The position numbers and the translations under genes are program-made. The notes under the pieces are model-generated. The model saw only the letters and a program-made list of their open reading frames with translations, was not told the origin of the DNA and searched no databases. From Macrotrachela quadricornifera (taxonomy: Eukaryota; Rotifera; Eurotatoria; Philodinida; Philodinidae), in assembly GCA_022393335.1 (NCBI GenBank), contig JAJEKB010021013.1:770838-834837 (forward strand): a stretch of DNA of 64,000 bases. The letters are read 5' to 3'. Positions 10,847 through 57,228 of the stretch are shown in pieces (position 1 is the stretch's first letter; every line of letters begins with the position of its first letter).

Positions 10847-11416
10847 TTGGCTATATTTCTATTTTAGTCACACTGATACTCCAATGAAAGCGTGTGCAAT
10901 ATTCAATCAGCAATATTGGCTATGGTGTCATAAAGACGAACCTTGGATGGTAACATGCTCTATTTGTCTAAAAAGAAATCAGTAGATGGTTGCCATTATT
11001 CTATGATATCTGATTCTGAGATGAAAAACATCTCTCTCAGAGGTTGTTAAAAAAAGGGCACCATCTGCTAGGGAGAAGGGAAGGTATACGTAGAGGGAAG
11101 TCATCTATTTTTCCAGATAAAGCTGGTTGTAAATAGTTTTCAAGTGTATCAGGTCAAGTGTAAACCATCATCTTCATCCTCTAGACATTTATTTAAGACG
11201 ATTTTCTAATACGGTGAAATAAACTACATACCCCTGCTTTTCTGATAGACGACCCTTCATTAAAAAACTTCCTCCAAGAATTGAAATATTTCAAATCAAG
11301 TGATCATCTTCTTGAAATCATGTTTTACATTAGATAAACAAGTTTCATGAGACAGGATATTTTCAGACTATTGTATAGGCAAGAAACATAAGCATTTTCC
11401 TAATTTGATTCAGATT
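10847..11416. other. Spacer between NACHT-WD40 and caspase-like genes
   Basis: No independent gene seen. The frame from about 10869 to 10985 is open (about 38 codons) and follows an acceptor-like ATTTTAG, so a further 3' exon of the NACHT gene is possible, but no donor in a compatible phase was found. An acceptor-like GATTCAG ends 3 nt before the ATG at 11417. Confidence 0.4.
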
Positions 11417-13625
11417 ATGGCCTTTATATCCTCACCGTCGCTCGACTTGCCAGGCAAGAAACGAGCTATTCTCATTGGTAATAATGCGTACAAAAAAGGA
11501 GATCAACTTGATTGTTGTATCAATAATGCTAACGATCTTGGTGAAAAACTGCACAATATCGGTTTTCAAGTGATTCTTGGTACTGATTTGACCTACGAAC
11601 AATCGAACATAATGATCGATAGTTTTACGCGTGAAATTTGTCCTGGTGATCTTGTTGTATTTTTCTTTTCTGGGTATGGGGTACATTGTGATGATCAGAA
11701 TGTTCTCATGCCCATTGACAATAATGAATTCAGCAGACCGACAATGCTTGGATGTCGAGCAATCAATGTTCAAGCTACCATAGAGATGATCATGGCACGT
11801 CATCCATCTCCAGCCATATTCCTGTTTGATTGCGTCCAAAGCAGTATCATTCATAATCAAGCTACGTCTGAAGATGTTTGTATTTACGATGGCTTGTCGA
11901 ATATAAAAGAAGTCGATGGTTCACTTATCGTCTATACCTGCGATGCAGATAAGACGTCTTCAGGCAGATCAAAGAACCAACGAAATAGCATTTTCACAAC
12001 TCATCTTCTTGAACATATTTCTAAGTCGAATTTGCTTATTAAAGACATGATGCAGCTTGTGTGCGATAGTGTCAAGAATGAAACCAACGGTGATCAGTGT
12101 CCTTTTCAAGTCAGTTCCCTACCCATTCCAGATATCTATTTAAGTCATCAAAATGAACCTGGTAAGTATCCATTTTAAAATACTAATCAAGAAAAATATT
12201 ATATTTTGTTGCTGCACTATGCTAATTGCAACCGACTACACAAATGCACTGTTTGAGTACGTACGAAGACGAGTGTAAAGTTACTCAGTAATGTGATAAT
12301 CGAAAACTCAATTGAAAATGTAAAGAATATGGAACTTATTGCTTTGACAGCATGATCAATATTAAAAAAACTCATCTCCAAGAAAAGCTCTTGAAAGATA
12401 TTGATGTTGAGAATATGCTAGCGAGTAAATCTACTGACAGATTTTCCATGATCCACACACTGCTTCTTAACGCACTTTTGGAAGGACAGTTTTTCACCAA
12501 TTTGAGAAATTCATTGTTTTGATGTCGAAGACCAAAACAAGATATTTTCGCAATGGCGTACCTAGTTGATAGTTGTTAAATTTTAATACTGTATCAAAAT
12601 CTTAGTGTCAAAAGAAAAGAAAAAGTGAGCTCGATTATTTTTGATCTATTTACAGAGATCTGCAAAAAGTTATTTAGATTTTATCAACAAATGTCAGTGT
12701 TGGTACAGAGTTTACAACACTCACTGTAATACTTTTAGAAATATTTCGTGAAAAAGTTATTTCCTCTAAATCAATAGAAAAATCTGTTCTTCTATATAAT
12801 TTTGCGATCTAAAAATATATGCATCAGCGTTTCTCAAGAATTTAACTAAGATAATGCTGCGAGTTTTTGAGAAAAACGTGATGTATTGTCAATGATCGAA
12901 TAACTTTTCAACTATACAATGAAGTTTCTAACACATCTAATTGATCAATGTGTCTAACTAACACTTTAACAGAGACAATACAGTAATAACAAGAAGGTCC
13001 TCGGTCACCGTTATTAAATGAATTCATTTATATGATGAAGAATGAGGGTGTGTGCAGATGTATAGAAAGATAAGATAGCCATAGAGAACTAATTTTGTCT
13101 GTCTTTATCGTATAAGAGTTTTAATAAAGCTTTATTCCAAAAATCAATTTTCCCTTAGACGTGACCAACCTCAAAAAACATCAGTCATCGCAATAAAAGA
13201 AAAGGAAGAAGTACAGTTCTGTTATATTTACACAATTTCATTTTCTTCTTTCTCTACTCTCTCTATGATAGTCACTGTATTTGCATTTAGGCATTTCAAC
13301 ATCACTTGCAGTTATAAATCCCAGATCATCCTCTCAACAGCATTTAGATTATGATGCGAGTTATTGGAGTATTATAATGAATCGTCGTAATGTTGATTGT
13401 ACTTTTGATGATCTTATTTATAATGTTGAACATGAAAATGATGATTATGATCTTCATGATGCTCTTACTGGTTATCACGATTATAATTTTGGCTGTTGGT
13501 GTCTTATTCATGCTCTTAAATATGGTATTAATAATGACGAATATGGTAAATGTATTATTGATAAACATATTTATAATTATCTTGCTGCTCTAGCTGCTAT
13601 TGATCGTAAAGATATGTGTGATTAG
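11417..13625 (+). CDS. Caspase-fold (peptidase C14-like) protein lacking the catalytic dyad
   Basis: Exon 1 is 11417-12161 and exon 2 is 13291-13625, joined over a GTAAGT donor and a CATTTAG acceptor. The join keeps phase and gives 359 aa. The p20-like fold is clear: KRAILIGNNAY at about 15-25, a CINNANDLGEKL segment, then GDLVVFFFSGYGV at about 77-89, IFLFDCV at about 134-140 and LIVYTCDADK. In active C14 enzymes these sites read S/AGHG (His) and D-x-C-R (Cys). Here they are SGYG (Tyr87) and DCVQ (Val140), so both catalytic positions appear substituted and the protein should be a pseudo-protease. Exon 2 encodes an acidic, His/Tyr/Asn-rich tail of no known domain. If the intron is retained, translation stops 5 codons after the donor. 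It lies downstream of a NACHT-WD40 gene on the same strand; a scaffold or decoy role is inference. Confidence 0.8.
12162..13290 (+). other. Long intron of the caspase-like gene
   Basis: 1129 nt between a perfect GTAAGT donor and an acceptor TTGCATTTAG. The sequence is AT-rich with no open frame of note and no mobile-element termini that I recognise. Support is phase compatibility and the open downstream exon; transcript data would be needed to confirm it. Confidence 0.6.
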
Positions 13626-21752: not shown

Positions 21753-22749
21753 GACTATTTCGTATGAGATATTCAGATGTTCAATATTCTTAGATTTTTG
21801 AGCAAAACAAAATATTCAAAGCAAGGAAAAAGAATGATACCATCACCTTCTCCATCAAGAATTACATAGGTCTCAATAAAATAAAATTAAAATTTAACAT
21901 CAAAGCCATATATGAAGACCTCTGCTAGAAGTCGCTTCTAGAGATCCCAGGCTGATTTTTTCTTGGATTGTAGCCTAGGCATAGTACTTTTAATATGTAA
22001 ACATCTGGCCTCAAACTGATCCATATTTTGAGAGAAAATCGATCTTGAACAATTCAGCTTTTGTAAATATGAAAGGGCTTCCAGAAATCCAACGGTTAAA
22101 GAATTTTGGGTGGAAATTTTATAGCAAGTGTAATTTAATAGGATACATATTTGTAAAACATTTCAGCTTGATTGGTCAAGCCGTTCTTGAAATATTACCC
22201 CATTCGTACCCACATTTTTTAAGTTTTCGAATTTTGACGATTTTCGTAAAATGCTTATAAAATTTGAAGGATTCAATATTTTTAAAATCGGCATGCGTCA
22301 AAATTCATCAAAAACATTGTTCTATCACATATTAAAAAATGAAGCAAATCTGAGAACTTTGATTGAGCAACTTCCGACGTGGCTTACATGCAGTGACTCA
22401 TATACCATCTATAGAAAAAAGGCCTTATCTTTTTATCTTCATATCTCGAAGAGAGTTCGTCGAAAAGTTCTGAATTCTTTATGTGAGTAAAGTCTTATTT
22501 CATAAAAGCGAAAATAAAATTGTGCTGGAAAAGTAAAGTGCTATAGGAAAAATGCACTAAAACGTCGATATCCCGCCAGAAACATGCCATGGGCTTGAAC
22601 TCTTTTAACTATAAACATAATTCACAAAGATCTTTAAGATGCACTAAACCTCGACTCAAAAACGCTCTGGCGCTTGGGAAGATTCCCTTGTAAGTAAAAC
22701 GATAAAAGGAGCTATTTGTTAATGTTTCAGATAAGAGTAAAAGTGAGAA
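21753..22749. other. 5' flank of the ART gene; no secure gene
   Basis: Short open frames at 22045-22260 and 22251-22490 match nothing I recognise. An acceptor-like TTTCAG ends about 20 nt before the ATG at 22750, consistent with a 5'-UTR intron or a trans-splice site. Confidence 0.4.
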
Positions 22750-23886
22750 ATGGCTTTGCCAAAACCAAAAACACAGAGTTCATTCAAGCATGTTGAGTGG
22801 ATGTGGAGATCCAATCAAGATTCATTCTCGACATCTGTAAAAGAGCAATGGAGTTACTATTCAGATGTGGAAAACATCATAATTGAGAGGGCATTTGTAA
22901 ACAACCAGCCGACAGCTGTTCTTGACGAATATTATATCGATTTCAAGGAAGGTCGTCAAATATCAATCACTGACGACTGCAAACAACTACCTGTCAAGCG
23001 TCTCATCAGAAATCGAGAAGACAAACATTTTCGCGAAACACGATTTGTAGATCTCCCTATTGTCAATGGACGTTCGTTCGGCGGACAATATGGTTGGGTT
23101 TCCCCTTTTATCATTGAAGTTCGAAGATATTTGGGACTGAAAGACAACGAATTACCATCGAAAGAATCGGAACTGATCCCGATGATCATTGAAAAGGCAG
23201 CGCAAGGCATTATCGAAGAAGGAAGACATCTAAAGAAACGATGTGAAGCAGAAGAAATAGCCAATCAACTTCTCGAACAGAAAAACAATGCAATGAAAGA
23301 AGTTTGGGAATGCTGCGTTTATTTATACACATTGGAAAGTTTCTTGTACAAACTATTGAACGAGACGATGCGGCTAATTGGAGACAAAAACAATGAGAAA
23401 GTCTGGAAAAGTAGAGTTCGCACTCTAGGACCATTTTGTTTGTTATTGTGGGACGATCCTTTTAATTCAAAAGTGACAGTGAATAAAACACTGTATCGTG
23501 GAGCAAGTTTGACGCCCGAAATGATCGACAGATATCGGCATATGGCCGAGAATAAAGACGAATACGGATCATTTCAAGCTTTTACATCGACGAGTCGAAA
23601 TCGAAAAATGGCAGAACAATTTGGAAATACTTTATTTATTATGGAAGTCGAATGGGCTTTTATCGCTGATCTCAGTCATTTATCAGAATATGAAAACGAA
23701 GAAGAAGAATTAATCACACCTGGTGTTTGTTTTCGTGTTCAAAGTGTAGAAGCCAAAGAAAACAAGTATCACATCCATTTGAAATTAAGACAACGATTTT
23801 CGAGTAAGTTCAAATCGATATTTGTTTTGCTTGAAGAATTTCAATTAGAGAAAAGAATTAATTTATCCAATGGAGTTCAGTATTGA
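22750..23886 (+). CDS. WWE-domain mono-ADP-ribosyltransferase (R-S-ExE class)
   Basis: Intronless 378-aa protein. Residues about 13-85 look like a WWE domain (W17/W19, KEQWSYYSD, YYIDFKEGRQ). The C-terminal half is an arginine-specific-type ART fold: TLYRG with R250, FQAFTSTSR with the STS motif at 280-282, and EEEELITPG with the E317-x-E319 pair. The R-S-ExE triad is therefore complete, so transferase activity using NAD+ is expected, transferring ADP-ribose to a protein side chain. WWE domains in other proteins bind poly- or iso-ADP-ribose and often accompany ubiquitin ligases or ARTs. There is no signal peptide, so an intracellular role is likely. Such ARTs are numerous in bdelloids. Substrate unknown; no break in the frame. 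Confidence 0.88.
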   Translation: MALPKPKTQSSFKHVEWMWRSNQDSFSTSVKEQWSYYSDVENIIIERAFVNNQPTAVLDEYYIDFKEGRQISITDDCKQLPVKRLIRNREDKHFRETRFVDLPIVNGRSFGGQYGWVSPFIIEVRRYLGLKDNELPSKESELIPMIIEKAAQGIIEEGRHLKKRCEAEEIANQLLEQKNNAMKEVWECCVYLYTLESFLYKLLNETMRLIGDKNNEKVWKSRVRTLGPFCLLLWDDPFNSKVTVNKTLYRGASLTPEMIDRYRHMAENKDEYGSFQAFTSTSRNRKMAEQFGNTLFIMEVEWAFIADLSHLSEYENEEEELITPGVCFRVQSVEAKENKYHIHLKLRQRFSSKFKSIFVLLEEFQLEKRINLSNGVQY

Positions 23887-31189: not shown

Positions 31190-34100
31190 CCGACGATCCT
31201 CATTTCAATGAAAATCATATTCATTTGCATTCGTTCAATCAATTAATAATTGAACAAGATTATCGTAGGACTCATTCTCAATTGATGTGATCTTCATTTC
31301 AAAGAAAATCATATTTTATTTCATTAGTTCAATCAATTAACAATTGAATAAAACAATGCTGACACTCATTCTCAATTCATATAATCTTCGCTTTAATGAA
31401 AATCATATTTACTATCACTAATTCAATGAATTAATAATCGAATAAGATATGCTAAGATTTATTCTCAATTGATCTGATTTTCATTTCAGTGAAAATCATC
31501 TACATTTTCATTAGTTCAATCAATTATCAATTGAATAAGATTATGATGAGACTCATTCTTAAATAATACAATCTTCATTTCAATGGAAATTATATATGTT
31601 TTCATTATTTGAATCAATTAAGAATTGAATAATACTATCGTTATGAGAGTCATTCTTAATTGATATAATCCCTATTTCCATGTAAACCATTTATTTTCAT
31701 TGGTTCAATCAAATGATAATTAAATGAAATTATGATGAGACCCATTCTCAATTCATATGATGTTTCTTTCAAGGAAAATCATATGTATTTTAAGTAGATT
31801 AATCAATTAATAATGGAATAAAATTATGTTCTGACTCATTCTCAATTGACATGATGTTCATTTCAATGAAAATTATGTTTATTTTTATTAGTTCAATCAA
31901 TCAATAATTGAGTAAGATTATGCTAAGACTTATTCTCAATTGATATGATGTTCATTTCAACGAAAATCATATTTCTTTTCATTAGTTCTATCAATTAACA
32001 ATGCATGAGATCATGCTAAGCCTCATGCTCAATTGATATGATGTTCATTTCAATGAAAATTATGTTTATTTTCATTACTTCAATCAATTAATAATTAAAT
32101 AAGATTATCGTAAGACTTATTCTCAATCGATCTGATCTTCATCTCAATGAAATTCATGTTTATTTTATTCCTTCAATCAATTAATAATTGAATAAGATTA
32201 TCATGAGACTCATTCTCAATTAATATCATCTTCATTTCAATGACAATCCGAATTATTTTCATTAATTCACTCAATTAACAATAGAATAATATTGTTTTCA
32301 GACACATTCTGAATTAATATAATCTTCATTTCAATGAAAATCCTACTTATTTTCATTATTTCAATCAATTATTAATCGAATAAGATGATGGTAAGGCTGA
32401 TTCTCAATTGAAGTGATCTTCATTTCAATGAATATCATAATTATTTGCATTGTTTTAATGAATTAATAATTGAATCAGATTATAATGAGGCTCATTCTAA
32501 ATTGATATAATCTTCATTTCAATAAAAATCATATTTATTTTCATTACTTCAATCTATTAACAACTGAATAAGATTATGATACGACGCATTCCCAATTCAT
32601 ATGATGTTCATTTCAATGAAAATCATATTGATTTTCATTATTTCAATCAATGAATAATTGAATAAGATTATGATGAGACTCATTCTCAATTGATGAGTTC
32701 TTGATTTTGATGAAAATCATATTTATTTTCATTACTTCAATGGATTAGCAACTGAACAAGATTATGATGAGACTCATTCTCAAAAGATATGATGTTCATT
32801 TCAATTAAAATCATGTTGATTTTTATTAGTTCAATCAATTAATAATTGAGTAAGATTATCGTAAGACTCATTTGCAATCAATATCATCTTCATTTCAATG
32901 AATATCATATTTATTTGTATTGTTTTAATGAAATAATAATCGAATAAGATTATGATAAGACTCATTCTCAATTCATATGATCTTTATATCAATGAAAATC
33001 ATATTTATTTTCAGTAGTTGAATCAATTAATAGTTGAATAAGATTATCGTAACACTGATTCTCAATTGATGTGATCTTCATTTTTAATGAAAATCATATT
33101 TTTTTTGCGTTACTTCAATCAATTTATAATTGAATAAAATTATGCTGAGACTCATTTTCAATTTATATCATATTCCTTGGAATGAAAACCATAATTATTA
33201 GCATCGATTCACTCAATTAACAATTGAATAAGAGTTTTTTCACACGCATTCTGAATTTATATGATCTTCATTTAAATGAAAATCACATTTATTTCCAATA
33301 GTTTAATCAATTATTAATTGAATAAGATTATGATGCGTCTCATTCTCAATTGATATGATCATCACTTCAATGAAATTCATATTTATTTTCATTACTTGAA
33401 TCAATCAATAAGTGAATAAGATTATCGTAAGACTCAATCTGAATTGATATGATCTTTACTTCAATGATATTCATGTTTATGTTCATTACTGGAATCAATT
33501 AATAATTGAATAAGATTATGATGAGATGCATTTTCAATGAATATGATCTCCACTTCAATGAAAATCACATGTATTTTCGTTAGTTCAACGAATTAATAGT
33601 TGAATAAGATTATCGTAAGACTTAATCTGAATTGATATGATCTTTACTTCAATGAAGTTCATATTTGTGTTCGTACTGGAATTAATTAATATTTGAATAA
33701 GATTATGGTGAGACTCATTCTCAATTGATATGATGTTCATTTCAATGAAAATCATATATATTTTCATTACTTCCATCAATTAACAACTGAATAAGATTAT
33801 GGTAACACTCATACTGAATTGATATGATCTTTATTTGATTAAAATTCATATTTACTATCAATACTGGACTCAGTTAACAATTGAATAATTTTGTCTTTAG
33901 ACTCATTCTCAATTGATATGATCATCAGTTCAACGAAAGTGATCTTTTATTTCATTACTTCAATGAATTAGTAATTGAATAAGATTATCTTCGGACTGAT
34001 TTTGAATTGATATAATATTGATTCCAGCAAAAATCATATTTATTTGTATTAGTTTAATCAATTAATAATTGAATAAAATTATGCTGAGACTGATTTTCGA

Positions 34101-34262
34101 TTCATGTGATATCGATTGCAATGAAAATTATATTCATTTTCATTCGAACAATCAATCGATAATTGAATAAGATAATGCTGAGACTGATTCGCAATTGATA
34201 TGATATGAATTCCAATGAAAATCATATGTATTTTCATTAGTTCGATCAATTAATAGTTGAAG
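31190..34262. repeat. Satellite of ~95-bp monomers, about 32 copies
   Basis: A monomer of about 95 nt recurs with moderate divergence; successive TTCAATC anchors at 31233, 31328 and 31422 are 94-95 nt apart and the pattern continues to about 34262. Each monomer strings together short inverted repeats: CAATTAATAATTG, GAGACTCATTCTC, ATTTCAATGAAAAT and AAAATCATATTTATTTTCAT. Small frames on the minus strand inside it are repeat translation, not genes. The right edge is abrupt, passing into a T-rich tract at 34265. Confidence 0.92.
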
Positions 34263-35532: not shown

Positions 35533-37061
35533 TAGTTTTTGATTTTTTTCAAATAATTTTTTGTTTCGATGAAAGTGAGGTTATATGAAAAATACTAATA
35601 GGATTTCGTGTGTATGTCAATTTGTGCCAGTTCATAGTGCGCAGGTTAAATAAGCGCAAGATTAAAAAAGCGATTCTCGCAGCTCAAAATTGATTCAATC
35701 AGTTTTTCGATGCCACGCGTTGAACCAAGCAAATTTATTTGGCTCCAGGTTTCGTAGAATCGAATGTTTTCAACCTCGTTTTCTCCATCAATTAGAGTTT
35801 TCAAGTTAGAAGTCAATCCCATTAAGGGTTTTTGGTGTTCCGTTTTCAATCAATAAAAGTGTTGGAGCTAAAAAATCCACTCAATCATAGATTTTTAATG
35901 CTAGATTTAGGGCAATTGAGATTTTATCAGGCTGAAAATGCAAGGAATCAGAAGTTTGCGTGTTTGTGCTCTCTTTCAATTGCATTTTTTCACGCCTAAA
36001 TTTTAACTAATGATAAATTTTCGATGTCGAACTATTCATCAATTACATTAGTTTCAGGCTGGATATCCAAACACTCAGAAATGTATTAGGGAGTTATGTA
36101 AACAACGTTGCGCAACTAGAGTCTCTACATCGATCGTACAGGAAAATTGGAGAACCACAAGGATAAATCGTATAGATAAAGCTAGAAAGAATGAAGAAAT
36201 ACGGATGCACAAAAAAACGGCTAGTCGTGAGTGGCGCCGACCAACAGCTAGCCGTTCATTTCTATTCTTAATTAAAATCAAGTATGTTCGATACTCATTA
36301 GGGACTGTTCCAACAGAATTACCTTTACGAGAGAACATCTCCAATTGTCTCCTCATTTTTGAATCAAGTAAGGTGCCGGCAAGTCGAAATTTGAGCAAAA
36401 ATTTTGTTTGCCGATTTTTTTGCATGGTTGGATAGAGCTCGTCGAGTTACCTATAAATATGTTGTTTTTAACATTTTCAGATCAATTTTTCTATAAAAAA
36501 TTTCTAAAATACTATTGTTTCCAAAATAGCCTTAAAGTGATATATCACTATTTAAGTTATAATTAGTATATTGATATTTTTATATTTAATCTTGATTTTA
36601 AGTTCTCCAAATATTTTAATCGATATTTCCAATAAGACTTGATATAAAAAAGTAACTTTTAATGGATTTGAAAGAAAACATGATTTGAAAGTCGAGTCTA
36701 TAATGGCTATACCTACATATAGATATATAGGCTTCATACGGGTATCTTCTAAAGACTTCAACTCACCATAGGTACATGTTATACTGATTCTTTTTCCATA
36801 GTTATAACCACCATATATATACTAAAAAAAGTATGTACGGGTTTTGGACCATCTCCTACTGTTGCTTACAAACTTGAATTATATTCCATGTCAATGGACA
36901 AGTCATAAAAACTAGTTAAAAGTGAGCGTATATTTAGCAGTTTTCATTATTTTAAGTCAATGCAAAAGCAAAATAAATAGCATATTCGGAATCAGCGTAA
37001 AAAACTACGTCGAATCAGATGTATTTTGTCGAAAAAATTTTTTCACAAAAAAATGGCCCCT
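35533..37061. other. Spacer; overlapping frames of unknown meaning
   Basis: Between 36058 and 36435 the plus strand is open for 125 codons after an acceptor-like GTTTCAG, and the minus strand is also open at 36075-36425. Neither translation matches a family I know, and I cannot choose between them. The rest is AT-rich. Confidence 0.35.
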
Positions 37062-37069
37062 ACTCAGAA

Positions 37070-37830
37070 AAAAAAGGTGTTTTACGGAACTATTTTTGGT
37101 TCTGTAACACATGCAGAACTTTTTAAAGTTCTGTAAAGCATCACAAAAACCAGTGAAGGTTCCGCTCAATAAAGCTGAACCATAAAAAGTTCTTCCTAAG
37201 TATTCCGAACCACAAGGGTTTCTGAGTTTTGTTGCGAAACCCTACAACGTGGTTTCTCAGAAGGTGATGAACCCACTAGGTTCCGTCTTATAGATACGGA
37301 ACTTCAAAAGGTTTCGTACATTATAGTTAAACCATACAAGGATTTGTATTAGACAATCTGAACTGAGCGAGTTTCTAATTACAAACACAGAATCATAAAA
37401 GGTTCTGTATGAAAATGCTAAACTATAGAAAGTGACTTATACGGTCCTAAATAAATAAAAAAGTTCTGTCCATAGCTACCGAACCTAGATAAGTTCTGGC
37501 TAATGATCTCGGAACTCCAAGAGGATCTGTTTATAGCTACGTTTAATTCACAGGGTTCTCCTAGATAATACTAAACCTTAAAAGGCTGTGTCCAGCAATG
37601 CTGAACTATATAAAAATTTTTATTGGATTATAATGAGTCGAAAGGTTCTGTCCGGCAATGCTGAACTATGTAAAAAAATTTATCAAATTATAATGAGTCG
37701 AAAAGGTTCTGTGTAATGATGCAGAACCTTGTAAGATTCTGTCTCTCAATATTAAAAGATGAAAAGTTGCTTTCATTGTGCTAACAAACTGAAAAGATTC
37801 TGTTCGTGCATACGACCAATAACATTTTTT
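37070..37830. repeat. Subterminal repeats, GGTTCTGT..GAACC units of ~30-45 nt
   Basis: About twenty degenerate units each contain GGTTCTGT or a close variant, 8-15 variable nt, and GAACC or GAACT, so each can fold as a small hairpin. Related words occur at the other end of the element (39540-39830), giving the element repetitive arms. Confidence 0.65.
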
Positions 37831-38214
37831 CTAAAATGGTTTAGACTAAATATGACAGAACTATTTTTTCAGATATAGTTCTGACTGTGTTTGACAGAAC
37901 CATTTTTTTTCTATCAAATTGTTATTCATACTCATAGCATGTTTATCCTGACATACTTATTAGAAAATGAAATAAAGAAAAATTTTATCAAGTATCATAT
38001 TTATCCCATATTAATAGTAAGTTAGTTAGTTCACAACAACGACAAATCTTTTTCTTCTATTATGTAAGTTCATCTTGACGTAATATCCGTGATGAGTGAT
38101 GTATCGAAAATGAAAAAAATATTTTCCTTTCAAATTCACTTCATATCGATCGCATCCAAATGGTACCCTATATATTTTAAAACAACAAAACTAATATCTT
38201 ATTTTTATATTTAG

Positions 38215-39435
38215 ATTCATCGTCATGTGATTTCAATAGTAAATTATGTATTTTAAAATAAACAAAACAAATATCCTCTTTCTGTATTTAGATTCATCGT
38301 CACCAAATTTGAATGGTGAGTTATATATTTAAAATATATAAAACTAATATCTTTTTTTTTATTTTAGATTTGTACTCAGCTGATTTCATTAGTAAGTTAT
38401 ATACCATAAATAAAAGAAATAATATCTTCTTTTTATATTAAGATACGTCTTCATCTACTTTCAATAGTAAGTTATATATTTTAAAAAAATAAAACTAACA
38501 TCTTCTTTTATATTTAGATTGATCCTCATATAACTTCTATAGTAAGTTATATATTTAAAAAACAACGCTAATATCTTCTTTGTTTTAGATTTATCCTCAG
38601 CTGATTTCATCAGTAAGCTATATGTTTTAAATAAATAAAATAGTATCTTTTTTGTATTTAGATTGATCTTTATCTAATCTCAGTAGTAAGTTATATATTT
38701 GAAATAAACAAAACTATTATCTTCTTTTTATATCTAGATTCATCCTGAACTGATTTCAATGGTGAGTTATGTATTTAAAAAAAACAAACTAATATCTTCG
38801 TTTTTATTTTAGATTCATCGTCATCTAATTTTAATGGTGAGTTATTTATTTTAAATAAAGAAAAATAATAACTTATTTTTAAATTTAGATTTATCCTCAG
38901 CTGATTTCATAAGTTATATGTTTTAAATAAACAAAACTAATATCTTTTTTTAATATTTAGACTGATCTTCGTCTAATGTTAATAGTAAGTTATATACTTT
39001 AAAAAAATAAAACTAATATCTTTTTTATTTTAGATTGATCTTCAGCTGAGTTCATAAGTAAGTTATATATTTTAAATAAACAAAAATAATTTATCTTCTT
39101 TTTATTTTAGATTTATATTCATGTGATTTCATGGGTAAGTTATGTATTTTCAATAAACAAAACTAATATGTTGTTTTATGTTTAGATTGATCCTCATCTA
39201 ACTTCAATAGTAAGTTGTATATTTTAAATATATAAAACTAATGTATTCTTTCTGTATTTAGATTGATCTTCATGCGATTTCAGTAGTAAGTTATGTATTT
39301 CATTAAACAAAACTAATATCTTTTTTTTATTTTAGATTTATGCTTAGCCGACTACATGAGTAAGTCATGTATTTTAAATAAATAAAAGTAATATCTTCTT
39401 TTTATATTTAGATTTATCCTCATCTAATTTCAATG
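38215..39435 (+). repeat. Tandem array of 17 intron-like / 24-nt microexon-like modules
   Basis: Modules of about 76 nt each contain a 24-nt block preceded by a polypyrimidine-TTTAG acceptor-like sequence and followed by GTAAGT, GTGAGT or a close variant. Blocks start at 38215 and the last ends at 39435. I counted exactly 24 nt between AG and GT in 16 of 17; the tenth (about 38889) has lost its donor. Spacers between intact neighbours are 47-53 nt, the same size as genuine introns in the genes at 5-10.8 kb and 41.7-43.4 kb. Read from the first base of each block, 14 of 17 are open, with the pattern I-[D/H/Y]-x-[H/Q]-L-I-S-x; blocks 2, 12 and 16 contain stops. No flanking host exon was identified. 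It may be a coincidental minisatellite or a true splicing cassette array. Confidence 0.85.
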
Positions 39436-39867
39436 GTGAATTATGCACTTGAAGTTTCACGATCACTATGGTCGTTCTGACATTTGGTTCTCATTTGAAA
39501 CATGGTCATCATTTGGATAGGTACGCATGCTCATAATAAGACAATATAGTTTGCAGTGATTCAGCAGATTCTGCAATGCAGAACCTGTTGCTACATTCGA
39601 AGATGGTTTTTAAAAGGAAACCATCGAATTATGGTGTTTCCCGTGTGAAACGGAACCTCTTCTAAAAAGGCGTTGATGAGTGGTTTCATCCGGTTTTTGA
39701 CTGAACTTTTTTCTAGACCGAACCATTTTGTGATGAGGACGGATGTATGATTCAGTTAGTTTTTCACAAAACCCACTTTGAGCCAGAACCCTTCTGAGGG
39801 GTTCTGAATAGTACTCGCGGGCCGAACCCCTAAAAAAGTTTTGCAAAACTCCCTTTTTTTTCTGAGT

Positions 39868-40270
39868 GGAACAACATGGGGTTTCACGGGAGAGCATGGG
39901 GTTTCATGGGACAACATGGATCTTCATGGGAGTATGGGGCCTCATGGGAATTCATGGGAGTATGCAGCCTCATGGGACAGTCCCATAGTCTCATGTAGTC
40001 CCATCTTGTCTCGTGAAACCTCATGTTCTCCTGTGAAGCCCTATAGTCCCATGTTGTCCCGTGAAACCCCATGTCGTCTCATGAAGCCTCATAGTCACAT
40101 GTAGCCCCACAGTCCCGTGAAGCTCCATGCTGTCCCGTGAAGCCTCATGTTATACTATGAAGCCCCATAGTCCCATATAGCCCCATGTGGTCCCACGAAG
40201 CTCCATAGTCTTATGCAGCCCCATGAATCCTCATAGCTTCATGTAGCCTCATAGTTCGATGTGGTCCTGG
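39868..40270. repeat. Minisatellite of ~18-20 bp units with a strand switch
   Basis: From 39868 to about 39975 units read GGTTTCATGGGACAACATGG; from about 39975 to 40270 they read as the reverse complement, CCCCATGTTGTCCCGTGAAG and variants. The two halves can therefore pair as a long hairpin. The array begins exactly at the right tip of the 37062-39867 element. Open frames across it are repeat translation. Confidence 0.85.
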
Positions 40271-41666: not shown

Positions 41667-43439
41667 TCAAATGTAAATACGAACAAAAGCTTCAATTTCT
41701 CGTCGACAGATGGGACATGTTCGAAGAGAATGACCACACGGGACACAGGTCGCAAGATGTCCACAGGGGATACATGCAAGGCGTTTCTCTTCCATCCAAC
41801 AGAGTGCACATGGATTGGACAGTGATGAACTACTTGTCGAATCCGTTTTCACGTCTGTTTTCTGTCCAGTGTCACCTTCAACTTTCTCTGGTTTCGACGC
41901 TTTGATATCCTTTTCATTTAAAGGATTCTGAGATTGTAGTTCTTCAACCATGGGCACGGACGATGATGGTGTAATTTGTTCTCGAATCATTTGCATTTTG
42001 ATACTTGGAATGACAATATTATCTTTGTTACCGTTGATATACTCAATTTGTTTTTGAAGAATCATACAAGCAACCAATAGATCACAGTCTGAAACAAAGT
42101 CATCCTCTGATAAAAGATACATGAAGATGTTCATCAAGATTTTATCTTTATTGCTTACGTTTAATTCGGAGTTGATCTTCCCAACAGCGTTTGATGACTG
42201 ATAGTTTGAAATTTCGATCGAGCAAACTTTGTGAAATTGGCAAATCTAGTCTAGCGGCAACCAGTCGTGACAAAGTGCTCTCATCCGGTATCACTAATCG
42301 AGAACGGTTCGTTGTGTAATTGTTGCCATTTATTTCCGATTGACTAACTCGGGCGCGTTCTGAAAGACAAAAAAGATTGTTTTTCTTTTTTTGAAGAGAA
42401 TAAACAAACCTTGAGCTTTTCGTTTCGAATTTTGAATCTTTCGATAGAGTTCATCTCCGCATAACTGTTTGGCATAGGCACAATGTGGAAACCATCGACA
42501 ATGCTCCACTATTGGATTATCTTTCGGTCCCCAATTCTGAAGTGATCCATTGCAATAGAAACAGGTTACTATTGTATTTGTTCCTGTGTAGAAAAATCCA
42601 GCTCGCACTAGATCATCGACAGAAGGTAATTGCTCTTCAGGCCATGACTCAAACGATGCATGACGTCTTGGTATTTCCACATAATTAATATGACATGGTG
42701 ATGCGTACACGATTTCATTTAATCGAAGAATATTCGATGTTTGTGATTGACGGTTGCCATTGTTTGTAGAATTTTCGTTGAGAATCGATATTGGCATTGC
42801 TTGACGAGTTTTTAACATGAGTAGAACATAAGGGCAGTTAGGCGAAAGAGTTTTATGCACTTGCTCTGGATCATCTACATGTGGTGTCCATTGTTGGCAG
42901 ATCAAATTGCAATACAAACAAATAACTCGATCACCAACGTTACAATTGAAAAAACCAGCTGATATTAATTGAGCTGCCGATGGTGATTGTTGATGAGGCC
43001 AATGTGTGAATGTTCGACGACGAACTTCTTTCATGATTTTAACTTCAACCAGTAAATTTTCCGTACTTACATCGATCTTTCGACGTTTTGATGAATTTTC
43101 TTGATTAATTGCCGTTGATACACGAGAAGAAGATAAGCTAATCGATTTCTTAGACTGCACGAATGGGCAAGCCGGACTCTGCTCAGCATGAATCATGAAC
43201 GGATTCATATCTTTGGTCCATTCAGACACTGTCAGCCCACATGTCTCACAGTGAGCAGTGTCAGCATCGTCTAAATATGTCCAGCCAGCTGCTCTCATCG
43301 CTAGAGACGAATGAACACCTCGCTTCTTCAGTTGCTCACAAATGTCAACAGCGCGACGACATAGTTCATCTTTTGCAAAACCCTTTCGTGGCTTATCATC
43401 AAGAAATTTTAGATGATGTATATTTTGGTTTATTAACAT
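41667..43439 (-). CDS. Inhibitor-of-apoptosis protein: three BIR domains, UBA-like region, RING
   Basis: Three exons on the minus strand: 43439-42410, 42359-42159 and 42106-41667, with GT..AG introns of 50 and 52 nt; joined length 1671 nt (556 aa). BIR zinc ligands are visible: C64, C67, H84, C91; C174, C177, H195, C202; C293, C296, H313, C320. Exon 2 encodes a helical LVIPDESTLSRLVAARLDLP region like the UBA of cIAPs. The C-terminus is a RING (CALCWMEEKRLACIPCGH ... CPICRREIEAFVRIYI, closely IAP-like). Order and length match BIRC2/3-type IAPs, which ubiquitinate and restrain caspases and NF-kB pathway kinases. The first BIR is the most divergent. An ATG follows an acceptor-like TTTTCTAG by about 12 nt. 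All joins keep frame. Without exon 1 splicing, translation would run into the short intron and stop soon after. Confidence 0.92.
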
Positions 43440-44318
43440 AATTGATTTTACTAGAAAATATTATTTACCTATAGGAAAACAATTTTCAATAATATGCAGA
43501 ACAATAAACGATTTTCAATGAATATTATTACTAGTTTCCTAGAAAGAAAAATGACTCTTGTTTGTTTCTCGTATTTATACATTTGAAGAAGGAACTGAAT
43601 AGCTCATAGCGTAATAACTTGATGACTCATTGTATTGCGTAACATTTTGGGAAAAACTTTGTGTAAAAATAGGATTGGGTATTTTTACTACCTATTGTGT
43701 AATTCGCCTACGACACAAGATATTTAGCGCCCTCTTGCATGAAACGAATATAGATGTCCGTAGTGTCCCATTTCGAAATTAATACACAACTTATCTTTAA
43801 TATTGCAAAAATGTTTTAACCGTAAGTCCAACAATCGAAATACTAGTTCAATAGGTTCTGCATTTAATACAGTCAGTCAAAATCTCTAAATAACGCCCAC
43901 TTAGATTCAGTCATCTATGTTATTAAAAAAAGGAGTCATTTCATTTTAGAAATGATACTATATCGATAGAGTGGATACCAAAGTTCGTGTACAATTTTCA
44001 ACAGAACCGGGACTTAAAAAAGTCATTTTGTAGTACCTTAGCTCACCCTCATCTAGCGTTAGAGTAGATAAGCAGTAAACAATATTGTTATAGACACGCG
44101 ATTCAGATCATTTTTGGGAAACACATCACTAAAACTTTTTATTTGAATTAGTTTATTGATCAGCAAGGAAAAAGGAATAGCAGAAGAAAAAGATCCATTC
44201 TAAGATTTAATACGTTTAAACGTAAAAGGAAGAGTTACATAGATTTGTCCTACTACTCTCGTTAAAGCCACGATGACATTTTATTGATCGATCTTGATTA
44301 TGTGAGCTGCTCGACATA
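43440..44318. other. 5' flank of the IAP gene; nothing else seen
   Basis: AT-rich, no open frame of note, no repeat termini recognised. Confidence 0.45.
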
Positions 44319-55080: not shown

Positions 55081-55488
55081 TGAAATTTATCTTTACTGTT
55101 AAAATTGTATTAGTGATTCTAAAATATAGATGTCCATCGCGGTTGAGAATCTGCCGCTGCCGCGCCGCGATGAACATCTCTGTCCTAAAATTATGGCCTG
55201 TCGATTAAAATAATTATCTTTCTGCAATCTAGTAGTCATTCAGAAAGAATAAACAGAGTGAATTTCTCTTCAACTACGAAGTCTTTTTTTTTTTATTAGA
55301 CGTATACTGAAGAGAACAGTTTTTCTACCTTGCTGATAACCTTATCAGAGAATGAATGCGACGATTCAATGTAAATAATAATTACAACATCAGAAAAAAT
55401 GTGATAAGAAAAAAAAACTGCAAAGCACTTCATTTGCTTTTTTTGCCACGTCGAGAAACACGATAGTATTACTGAATACATTGCAAAA
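55081..55488. other. 5' flank of the F-box gene
   Basis: No gene. A short palindromic GC-rich patch (GCGGTTGAGAATCTGCCGCTGCCGCGCCGC at about 55139-55168) is unusual for the neighbourhood but unexplained. Confidence 0.4.
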
Positions 55489-57228
55489 ATGTATTTTGAA
55501 TTGTTAGCCAATGAATTGTTACTCGAGTTATTTGAATATATAAACGCGATCGATCTATTTCATGTTTTCTACGGTCTTAATTCTCGGTTTAATGAACTTC
55601 TTATGATTCATTTCCGTGCCTATAATATTGACTTTCAATCTGTGTCTAAACATAATTTCGATATCTTCTGTATCAAGTACCTTCCATTAATTATCAAACG
55701 AGTGATTTCATTTCGTCTATCGAATGATCAAGAAACTCCAGGTTTGCCAAATCATTTTCTTCGCTATTATTTTACAATTAATCAATTTACTCATTTGAAA
55801 TATCTTAAACTTCATGCTTTCGATTCTATTAAATCATTACTAAAAATTTTATCTGATTGTTATCATCTAGCACATCTTACTCATGTGAAAATTACCGAAT
55901 GTCCCGATGTATATGGTAATAATTTTAATGATATGATTGAAAGTATTTGGCATTTACCAAAACTGACTCATTGTCATCTGAATTCAAATTTCGTTTACTC
56001 ATTTCAATTGGAAAATTCGACATTGATTTCATCAGAAACAATCAGACATGTGTTCATGAAAAATATTCGATTTTCGCCAAATGATCTGATTGAACTATTC
56101 GCACATACACCAAATCTTCAATATTTTAACACAACATTTGAACATAAGCCTGCGTTCTCACAGTCATTCATCGTTGTTCCATCGATCACTAAGTTAAATT
56201 TGGCAATCAAGCATCCACTACATCTACAGGGTAAATTTTTCGAATTGATGCCGAATTTGTCTCATGTAACACTCGAAATTACCGATAGTTCAAATAATAC
56301 TTATTTGAATGGACATCAATGGAAACAGTTTATTATTGATCATCTATTCAATATTAAAGTATTTCGATTTTTTGTAAGATACCGATTTTCTGGTAAGACA
56401 GATCCTGAGGAAACAATCGATAAAATACTTGATACATTTCGAACTCCATTTTGGCTTCATGAACATCGTTGGTTTGTTCAATGTCAGTGGATTCCACGAC
56501 TTACAGATCAAACAATATCTCTTTATACTTTACCAAGTTGTTCTAGCGACGTTTATGCTCTGTATTCATTGACGGTACGATCGAAATCTACTTGTCCTGT
56601 AAGTCAAAATGATTGGACATCCAATGATGTGTGTCTTATGATTCATAAAAATGAAATCTACATGGACTATCCATCATGTATTTTTTTCTCAAAAATCGGT
56701 CACTTAAAAATCAGCCTTCCTACAGAATGTAATATTTGGTCATTTATTTCTACACTTGATCATCTCATTTCATTGGATGTATCACTAACCAATAGGACTG
56801 GTCTATCTCAGCTGCAAACTTTGATCGATCGAGCACCTCATTGCTCTTCGTTAACTGTCAAAAATGCATCAGCTTCCCAATTGGCACAATTAGATACCAC
56901 TTATACACAGATTCGTCGAGTTTTTTTAATAAATTATTGTTTCAATGCTCCAGAATGTTCTTTGTTAGCTAATTCATCGCTAGGACATCGATGTGAAGTT
57001 CTTTCAATTGCTGTTACAGATCGACGGCATGTTCCTGATCTTATTGAAGAAATACCAAATCTTCGAGCATTGGCATGCTATTGTGAAGACAATAAATGGG
57101 ATGTGGATGGATCATTATCATCAGAAACGAAAAATGTACTCGAATGGCTGAAAGAGCATTTACCATCAACATACTTCATTCGTATGCTTATGAAATACCA
57201 TGAAAATATTCAAATATGGATTGGCTGA
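55489..57228 (+). CDS. F-box protein with LRR-like C-terminal region
   Basis: Single-exon frame of 579 aa. Residues 4-45 form an F-box (ELLANELLLELFEYINAIDL then FHVFYGLNSRFNELL), which would bind Skp1 in an SCF ubiquitin ligase. The rest has irregular leucine-rich segments (HLKYLKLHAF, HLAHLTHVKI, LPKLTHCHL, NLQYFNTTF, SITKLNLAI), typical of substrate-binding repeats, and a second LRR-like block near 430-530 (LISLDVSL, NLRALACY). This architecture is a large expanded family in bdelloid genomes. The start is the first ATG of the frame, four residues before the F-box proper. The frame is intact and the codon use resembles the other genes here. Substrate unknown. Confidence 0.88.
   Translation: MYFELLANELLLELFEYINAIDLFHVFYGLNSRFNELLMIHFRAYNIDFQSVSKHNFDIFCIKYLPLIIKRVISFRLSNDQETPGLPNHFLRYYFTINQFTHLKYLKLHAFDSIKSLLKILSDCYHLAHLTHVKITECPDVYGNNFNDMIESIWHLPKLTHCHLNSNFVYSFQLENSTLISSETIRHVFMKNIRFSPNDLIELFAHTPNLQYFNTTFEHKPAFSQSFIVVPSITKLNLAIKHPLHLQGKFFELMPNLSHVTLEITDSSNNTYLNGHQWKQFIIDHLFNIKVFRFFVRYRFSGKTDPEETIDKILDTFRTPFWLHEHRWFVQCQWIPRLTDQTISLYTLPSCSSDVYALYSLTVRSKSTCPVSQNDWTSNDVCLMIHKNEIYMDYPSCIFFSKIGHLKISLPTECNIWSFISTLDHLISLDVSLTNRTGLSQLQTLIDRAPHCSSLTVKNASASQLAQLDTTYTQIRRVFLINYCFNAPECSLLANSSLGHRCEVLSIAVTDRRHVPDLIEEIPNLRALACYCEDNKWDVDGSLSSETKNVLEWLKEHLPSTYFIRMLMKYHENIQIWIG

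Follow-up and report, generated by a model that had tools for sequence, protein, structure and literature searches.

A dispersed bdelloid DNA transposon carries a tandem array of intron-like units enclosing 24-nucleotide micro-exon-like blocks

The window analyzed here is a 64,000-nucleotide stretch of the Macrotrachela quadricornifera assembly GCA_022393335.1 (contig JAJEKB010021013.1). It opens with transposase fragments at 48–707 and 1034–1543 of the hAT and DDE_Tnp_1_7 types, the DDE_Tnp_1_7 fragment presumably being piggyBac-type. These are followed by an ORF with a caspase domain (11351–12178) and an ORF with WWE and ADP-ribosyltransferase domains (22747–23886). A satellite of 94-bp period (32.6 copies, 31195–34261) lies 3 kb upstream of the element described below, and its consensus has no evident splice donors. 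An inhibitor-of-apoptosis gene on the minus strand (41667–43460) encodes a RING finger and a BIR domain split over three stretches; its inferred introns measure 50 and 52 nt. The best named relatives of a further ORF (55408–57225) are F-box proteins of Adineta ricciae (44%) and Rotaria sordida (42%); its top match stands at 59%. Between the satellite and the inhibitor-of-apoptosis gene lies a transposon copy with the following features.

37063..39866, plus strand (that of the array): non-autonomous DNA transposon copy of 2804 bp, delimited by ends common to dispersed copies with unrelated flanks
37063..37077, plus strand: left terminal inverted repeat; the preceding two bases (37061–37062) are TA
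37100..37980, no strand assigned: left subterminal region in which numerous short motifs of the GGTTCTG/CAGAACC type are seen by eye; no overlapping ORF longer than 98 aa
37983..38214, plus strand: decayed upstream units with most splice signals gone, recognized by eye and by match to the array of a diverged relative
38215..39435, plus strand: array of micro-exon-like 24-nt blocks, each with a T-rich tract and AG before it and GT after it
38889..38918, plus strand: unit with the degraded donor GTTATA; the consensus of its own class is GTAAGT
39436..39480, plus strand: decayed 3' edge of the array (GTGAATTATGCACTTG...), an edge shared with copies L033 and L039
39852..39866, minus strand: right terminal inverted repeat; the following two bases (39867–39868) are TG

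The array forms the center of a non-autonomous DNA transposon with inverted-repeat ends. The inverted repeats CTCAGAAAAAAAAGG and CCTTTTTTTTCTGAG bound the element and recur in copies at unrelated flanks, the mark of a TIR DNA transposon. The initial annotation had called the carrier transposon-like, which the common ends, unrelated flanks and dispersed copies bear out. A search of the assembly (450 Mb, 5695 contigs) with the left end returned 38 matches. Twenty-one are near-full at 96–100% identity, the window's own among them, with those on C5372 and C5373 at similar positions and possibly one locus. Two more loci match in pieces (97% and 93%; 98% and 90%), and 13 weaker matches cover shorter stretches at 66–90% identity. 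The close copies number about 23 and are dispersed in the assembly. The array itself gave 249 matches, located at 22 places on 21 contigs among the matches listed. The 21 arrays compared below comprise the window's own and those at 20 of the listed places, C4300 excluded.

Copies range from 2.3 to 4.9 kb, and the orientation of the array relative to the ends is identical in all copies in which an end can be seen. In the 17 copies with both ends visible, the two bases flanking the element, a candidate target-site duplication, are identical in 10 (TA/TA in 8, CA/CA in 1, TG/TG in 1) and different in 7. A transposase was not detected: ORFs overlapping the window element reach 98 aa at most. The longest ORFs of L033, L037 and L039 (158 and 142 aa), like two 79-aa ORFs, had no Pfam match at cut-off; the 158-aa ORF lies at the right end of L033 and runs into its flank, and the 142-aa ORF belongs to a nested insert. 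This 1.1-kb insert lies left of the array in L033, L039 and L044, has CAGAGCTGGGCAACTCAG-type inverted ends and is flanked by the 8-bp repeat ATCCAAAT (read in L039). It was considered as an upstream exon and rejected, since, with 8-bp repeats on either side, it resembles a nested element, which we take to be hAT-like. An extra 0.85 kb on the right side of L037 is absent from all other copies compared.

The array at 38215–39435 consists of 17 tandem units, each running from a T-rich tract through an AG and a 24-nt block to a GT; TTTAG is the usual acceptor and GTRAGT the usual donor. The AG precedes the block in 17/17 units and the GT follows exactly 24 nt past the AG in 17/17. The initial annotation had counted 16 of 17 for this spacing. 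GTRA-type donors number 16/17, the exception being the GTTATA unit at 38889. Spacers between units are 47–53 nt, as first described (partly counted by hand). The extent originally assigned also holds, with the addition of decayed units upstream to about 37983, a stretch that closes with the first intact acceptor, a TTTAG ending at 38214. Tandem Repeats Finder reports a period of 75 and 16.9 copies at 38169–39434. Ten first-order Markov resamplings of 264 kb contain on average 0.6 pairs of successive equal-length AG-N(k)-GTRAG units (k of 15–40). In 268 kb, most of which consists of loci of the window array's family, a near-identical two-unit pattern (k of 15–39) matched 248 times with k = 24 and twice with k = 26; no other k gave a match. 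A chance origin of the array is ruled out.

The spacers have the size of host introns. Continuity of ORFs across the DNA examined identified 28 candidate host introns in a scan of 40–74 nt, 18 at 46–57 nt and 10 at 63–73 nt, in agreement with the earlier remark that the spacers match introns nearby. Published intron medians for bdelloids are 55–67 bp (PMC5916493).

Divergence among the units was used to examine which positions are retained. Scoring covered 356 unit positions in 21 arrays, one with N being left out and one in L031 being doubtful. The AG is present in 346/356, the GT 24 nt further on in 349/356, and both in 341/356. Nearly all units (350/356) sort into 25 classes, each with 6 or more members and recurring from copy to copy, and the order of the classes along the arrays is visible from common spacing patterns. 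Recurrent classes in a common order therefore suggest that diversification of the array preceded its copying with the element, units being lost by deletion. In the 25 class consensus sequences, 8/44 fixed columns are invariant, both AG bases and both GT bases among them. Mapped by parsimony onto a tree of 24 classes with right-justified ends (the 25th class has no complete member), columns change 2.27 times on average, and 10/52 fixed columns do not change. All four GT/AG columns are among these 10 (hypergeometric P = 7.8e-4, with incompletely independent columns taken as exchangeable and units sharing ancestry). The only adjacent pairs of unchanged columns are the GT and the AG, plus the AG running into the first base of the block. 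The donor +3 position is A or G in 23/24 classes, and a TAAT branch-point-like motif starts 20–24 nt before the intron-like end in 17/24. The units carry a donor, a branch-point-like motif, a T-tract and an AG at host intron size, the signals of a spliceosomal intron. The constancy of GT and AG among the old classes looks like a past splicing constraint.

Diverged relatives at 66–70% identity show a similar pattern. L051 (contig C3995), with a left end 69% identical, has the AG/24/GT arrangement three times with quite different blocks, and a fourth AG-bounded stretch has no donor. Block lengths are 29 and 24 nt on C4565; 24, 24, 29 and 24 nt in a first stretch of C4385; 24, 25 and 28 nt in a second; and 23 nt on C4660. 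Fourteen blocks, one of them at the edge of its stretch, were hand-parsed from an AG onward, a count that is blind to loss of the AG: GT follows 12 and GC follows one. By eye, two or more additional spacers (in L054 and L055) lack a terminal AG; they stand outside this count. The sequences of the blocks differ strongly, and the GT kept after 12/14 of them, with the unchanged GT and AG of the old classes, backs the intron-like nature first proposed for the units. The unit profile recognizes parts of L051–L054 (E = 3e-5 to 2.4); its match to L055 is poor (E = 4.9).

An array at L035 (8255–8520, plus strand) has three 26-nt blocks between AG and GT with spacers of 34–56 nt, and it is not detected by the unit profile of the 24-nt family. 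A genome search with this array gave at least 86 matches on at least 36 contigs, many of them in tandem (40 of 109 candidates scored). The L035 array appears to represent a second dispersed family of like design with no detectable homology to the first, its 26-nt block length having been read in this one copy. A short run at L046 (8930–10000, minus strand) has intron-like spacers and blocks that measure 23, 26 and 24 nt, and adjoins about five larger units of ~90–105-nt exon-like plus intron-like sequence. It sits beside another subterminal-repeat family and has one other relative in the genome.

The blocks of the close copies are nearly constant in length. The one 23-nt block, in L048, escaped the ungapped block profile used to detect units, which was trained on 24-nt units. 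The L048 interval is the sole two-unit-length interval otherwise unexplained, the bigger gaps in L031 and L038 being inserts. This single block indel compares with about 5 expected (P = 0.04) from 7/13 flank events, or 9 (P = 0.001) from all 13; the expectation derives from non-homopolymer events in the left flank of 17 copies, 6/13 of which sit at alignment edges. A strict constraint at 24 nt was rejected. One indel against 5 to 9 is low, though not decisive. Spacer length varies mainly in A/T runs. The 24-nt constancy is largely explained by descent together with the absence of slippage-prone runs, in line with the original caution that common ancestry weakens the length evidence. Variation of block length elsewhere had also been named as a point against the cassette reading: close copies hold to 24 nt apart from the 23-nt block, and among the diverged relatives 8/13 measurable blocks are 24 nt and 5/13 are 23, 25, 28 or 29 nt.

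Recent mutations in the copies were examined for ongoing protection of the splice sites. Core columns changed in 13/1400 positions versus 194/12250 elsewhere (P = 0.064), and 12 unique mutation events fell in core columns versus 16.8 expected (P = 0.15). The splice AG is mutated in 7/350 and the splice GT in 6/350, compared with 14/753 and 14/705 for other AG and GT of the unit, an imperfect control that takes in AG and GT within the donor motif. Mutation in the element flanks (AG 52/1215, GT 54/1373) is marginally higher than at the splice AG and GT (P = 0.055 and 0.049). Base-adjusted counts are low at the AG (7 versus 20.6 expected) and GT (6 versus 21.1), and the blocks are also low (136 versus 182.9). 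The AG and GT depletion is gone once matched for dinucleotide context within the unit, and current selection on the splice sites is therefore not claimed. The lower mutation in units than in flanks may reflect the retention of recognizable units only. Recent mutations give no clear extra protection to the splice sites, and the present copies may be inert or neutral.

These data bear on the alternative that the array is a neutral minisatellite inside a transposon. A captured intron with a bit of exon would have been amplified by unequal exchange and never selected as an array, and its likeness to introns would reflect inheritance and homogenization. The absence of clear splice-site protection in recent copies fits this account, as do array edges decayed in the manner of ordinary satellites and a 24-nt constancy that needs modest constraint only, with spacers varying mainly in A/T runs. 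We consider it somewhat unlikely, because GT and AG are unchanged across a divergent set of units, the relatives retain the GT after 12/14 blocks, and the same design is present at L035 with no detectable homology.

The reading frame was considered because 24 nt equals 8 codons. The initial annotation proposed a cassette of coding micro-exons that could be included or skipped to diversify a protein, by analogy with schistosome micro-exon genes, and gave 14 of 17 blocks as open in one frame. The count in the window is 13/17 (frame 0). Across the 21 arrays, frame 0 is open in 286/356 blocks, frame 2 in 241/356 and frame 1 in 63/356, and all four listed L051 blocks are also open in frame 0. Against these openings, stops lie in frame in 5/25 class blocks, and changes in the class blocks number 42, 37 and 30 at first, second and third codon positions, so that first positions change most and third positions are least variable. 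Block length divisible by three holds in the window's family, apart from the 23-nt block, and fails in 5/13 blocks of the relatives. No ORF longer than 98 aa overlaps the window element, and the joined block peptide has no protein match at E ≤ 1 (883 candidates). The 26-nt blocks of the L035 array likewise speak against an 8-codon cassette. A frame-preserving coding cassette was rejected on these grounds. The coding interpretation is already largely contradicted and we regard it as barely credible.

The array could also be a series of sites bound by a DNA- or RNA-binding factor, such as a transposase, a small-RNA source or a chromatin component, with a fortuitous resemblance to introns. Other repeated motifs occur in the ends of the element (by eye), as such an account would have it. 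The positions that remain unchanged include those that define introns, and an Rfam search of the window found no family at the gathering score, leaving a binding-site array decidedly improbable.

The explanation we favor, and hold to be on balance probable, is that the array arose by tandem amplification of a non-coding micro-exon and mini-intron cassette that was once spliced and is carried by a transposon. Each unit would comprise a miniature intron (GTRAGT, in most classes TAAT ~20–24 nt before the end, a T-rich tract and TTTAG) and a micro-exon of ~24 nt, and the exon-intron unit would have been amplified in tandem within a transcribed ancestral element. This ancestor is proposed to have been transcribed in the sense of the array and spliced while the array diversified. 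Units with a broken GT or AG would therefore have been purged by selection for a time, with block sequence and, from family to family, block length less constrained. The micro-exons would be non-coding. The element would later have spread recently with the array as cargo, still splice-competent in appearance and probably no longer under selection. A broader proposal, which we put forward tentatively, is that two unrelated families of mobile, or at any rate dispersed, elements in this bdelloid lineage independently built spliceable mini-intron arrays with micro-exons of fixed, family-specific length (24 and 26 nt), selection keeping the splice sites and not the sequence or frame; these would be a new type of spliced non-coding transposon cassette.

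An adaptive version of the formerly spliced cassette holds that chained introns allow a transposon that has landed in a gene largely to leave the transcript, so that insertions are tolerated. The constant orientation of the array relative to the ends, the host-intron size of the spacers and the acceptor-like right end of the element, a T-tract ending CTGAG, are consistent with this camouflage. However, stop-bearing micro-exons would stay in the mRNA. Joined flanks, assessed in 15 correctly joined copies with L034 and L047 left out, have an ORF longer than 100 aa in 8/15 versus 35% of 234 random positions. Insertions are therefore not clearly enriched in coding sequence, and we judge camouflage improbable.

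Each part of the favored design is known separately: introners, micro-exon genes, repeated exon-intron non-coding hosts and tandem repeats in transposons. Non-autonomous TIR DNA transposons with internal tandem repeats are a known kind, and the present element resembles them in its short inverted ends, absence of a detected transposase, dispersed near-identical copies and a central array of variable copy number. It differs from ordinary members in that the repeat unit is a mini-intron plus micro-exon with conserved splice dinucleotides. Schistosome micro-exon genes likewise have strings of very short exon-like blocks of a length here divisible by three, whereas the array has no coding signal, contains in-frame stops, lies in a transposon and has diverged relatives with lengths not divisible by three; the schistosome-like reading fails on these points. 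Repeated exon-intron snoRNA host transcripts, for example at the Prader-Willi locus, consist of tandem exon-intron units in a non-coding transcript, as proposed here. Typical snoRNAs would not fit into introns of ~52 nt, and unlike those hosts the array has intron-like spacers of ~52 nt and no Rfam match in the window. An introner becomes, as a whole element, one intron at its insertion site, and its ends lie at the splice sites. Introners, which are intron-generating DNA transposons (PMC9860276), share with the present element the combination of a transposon with spliceosomal signals. Unlike introners, the 2.3–4.9-kb element contains many intron-like units, with splice-like sites repeated in its interior. 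The ends themselves do not coincide with evident splice sites, and the left end shows no consistent donor among the copies compared. The combined design is not described in the titles and abstract openings examined on bdelloids, introners, micro-exons and transposons, tandem repeats with splicing, and rotifer trans-splicing, subscription papers falling mostly outside this scope. The combination of known parts appears to be new.

If the array is not spliced, it is a satellite that preserves functional-looking signals by descent alone and calls for caution with motif-based claims. If it is spliced, this transposon would have at its core introns chained at very high density, the exons between them measuring just 23–29 nt. 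It would then offer a natural test of minimum exon and intron length and of tandem intron multiplication, and a test of whether transposons hide by splicing in gene-dense genomes.
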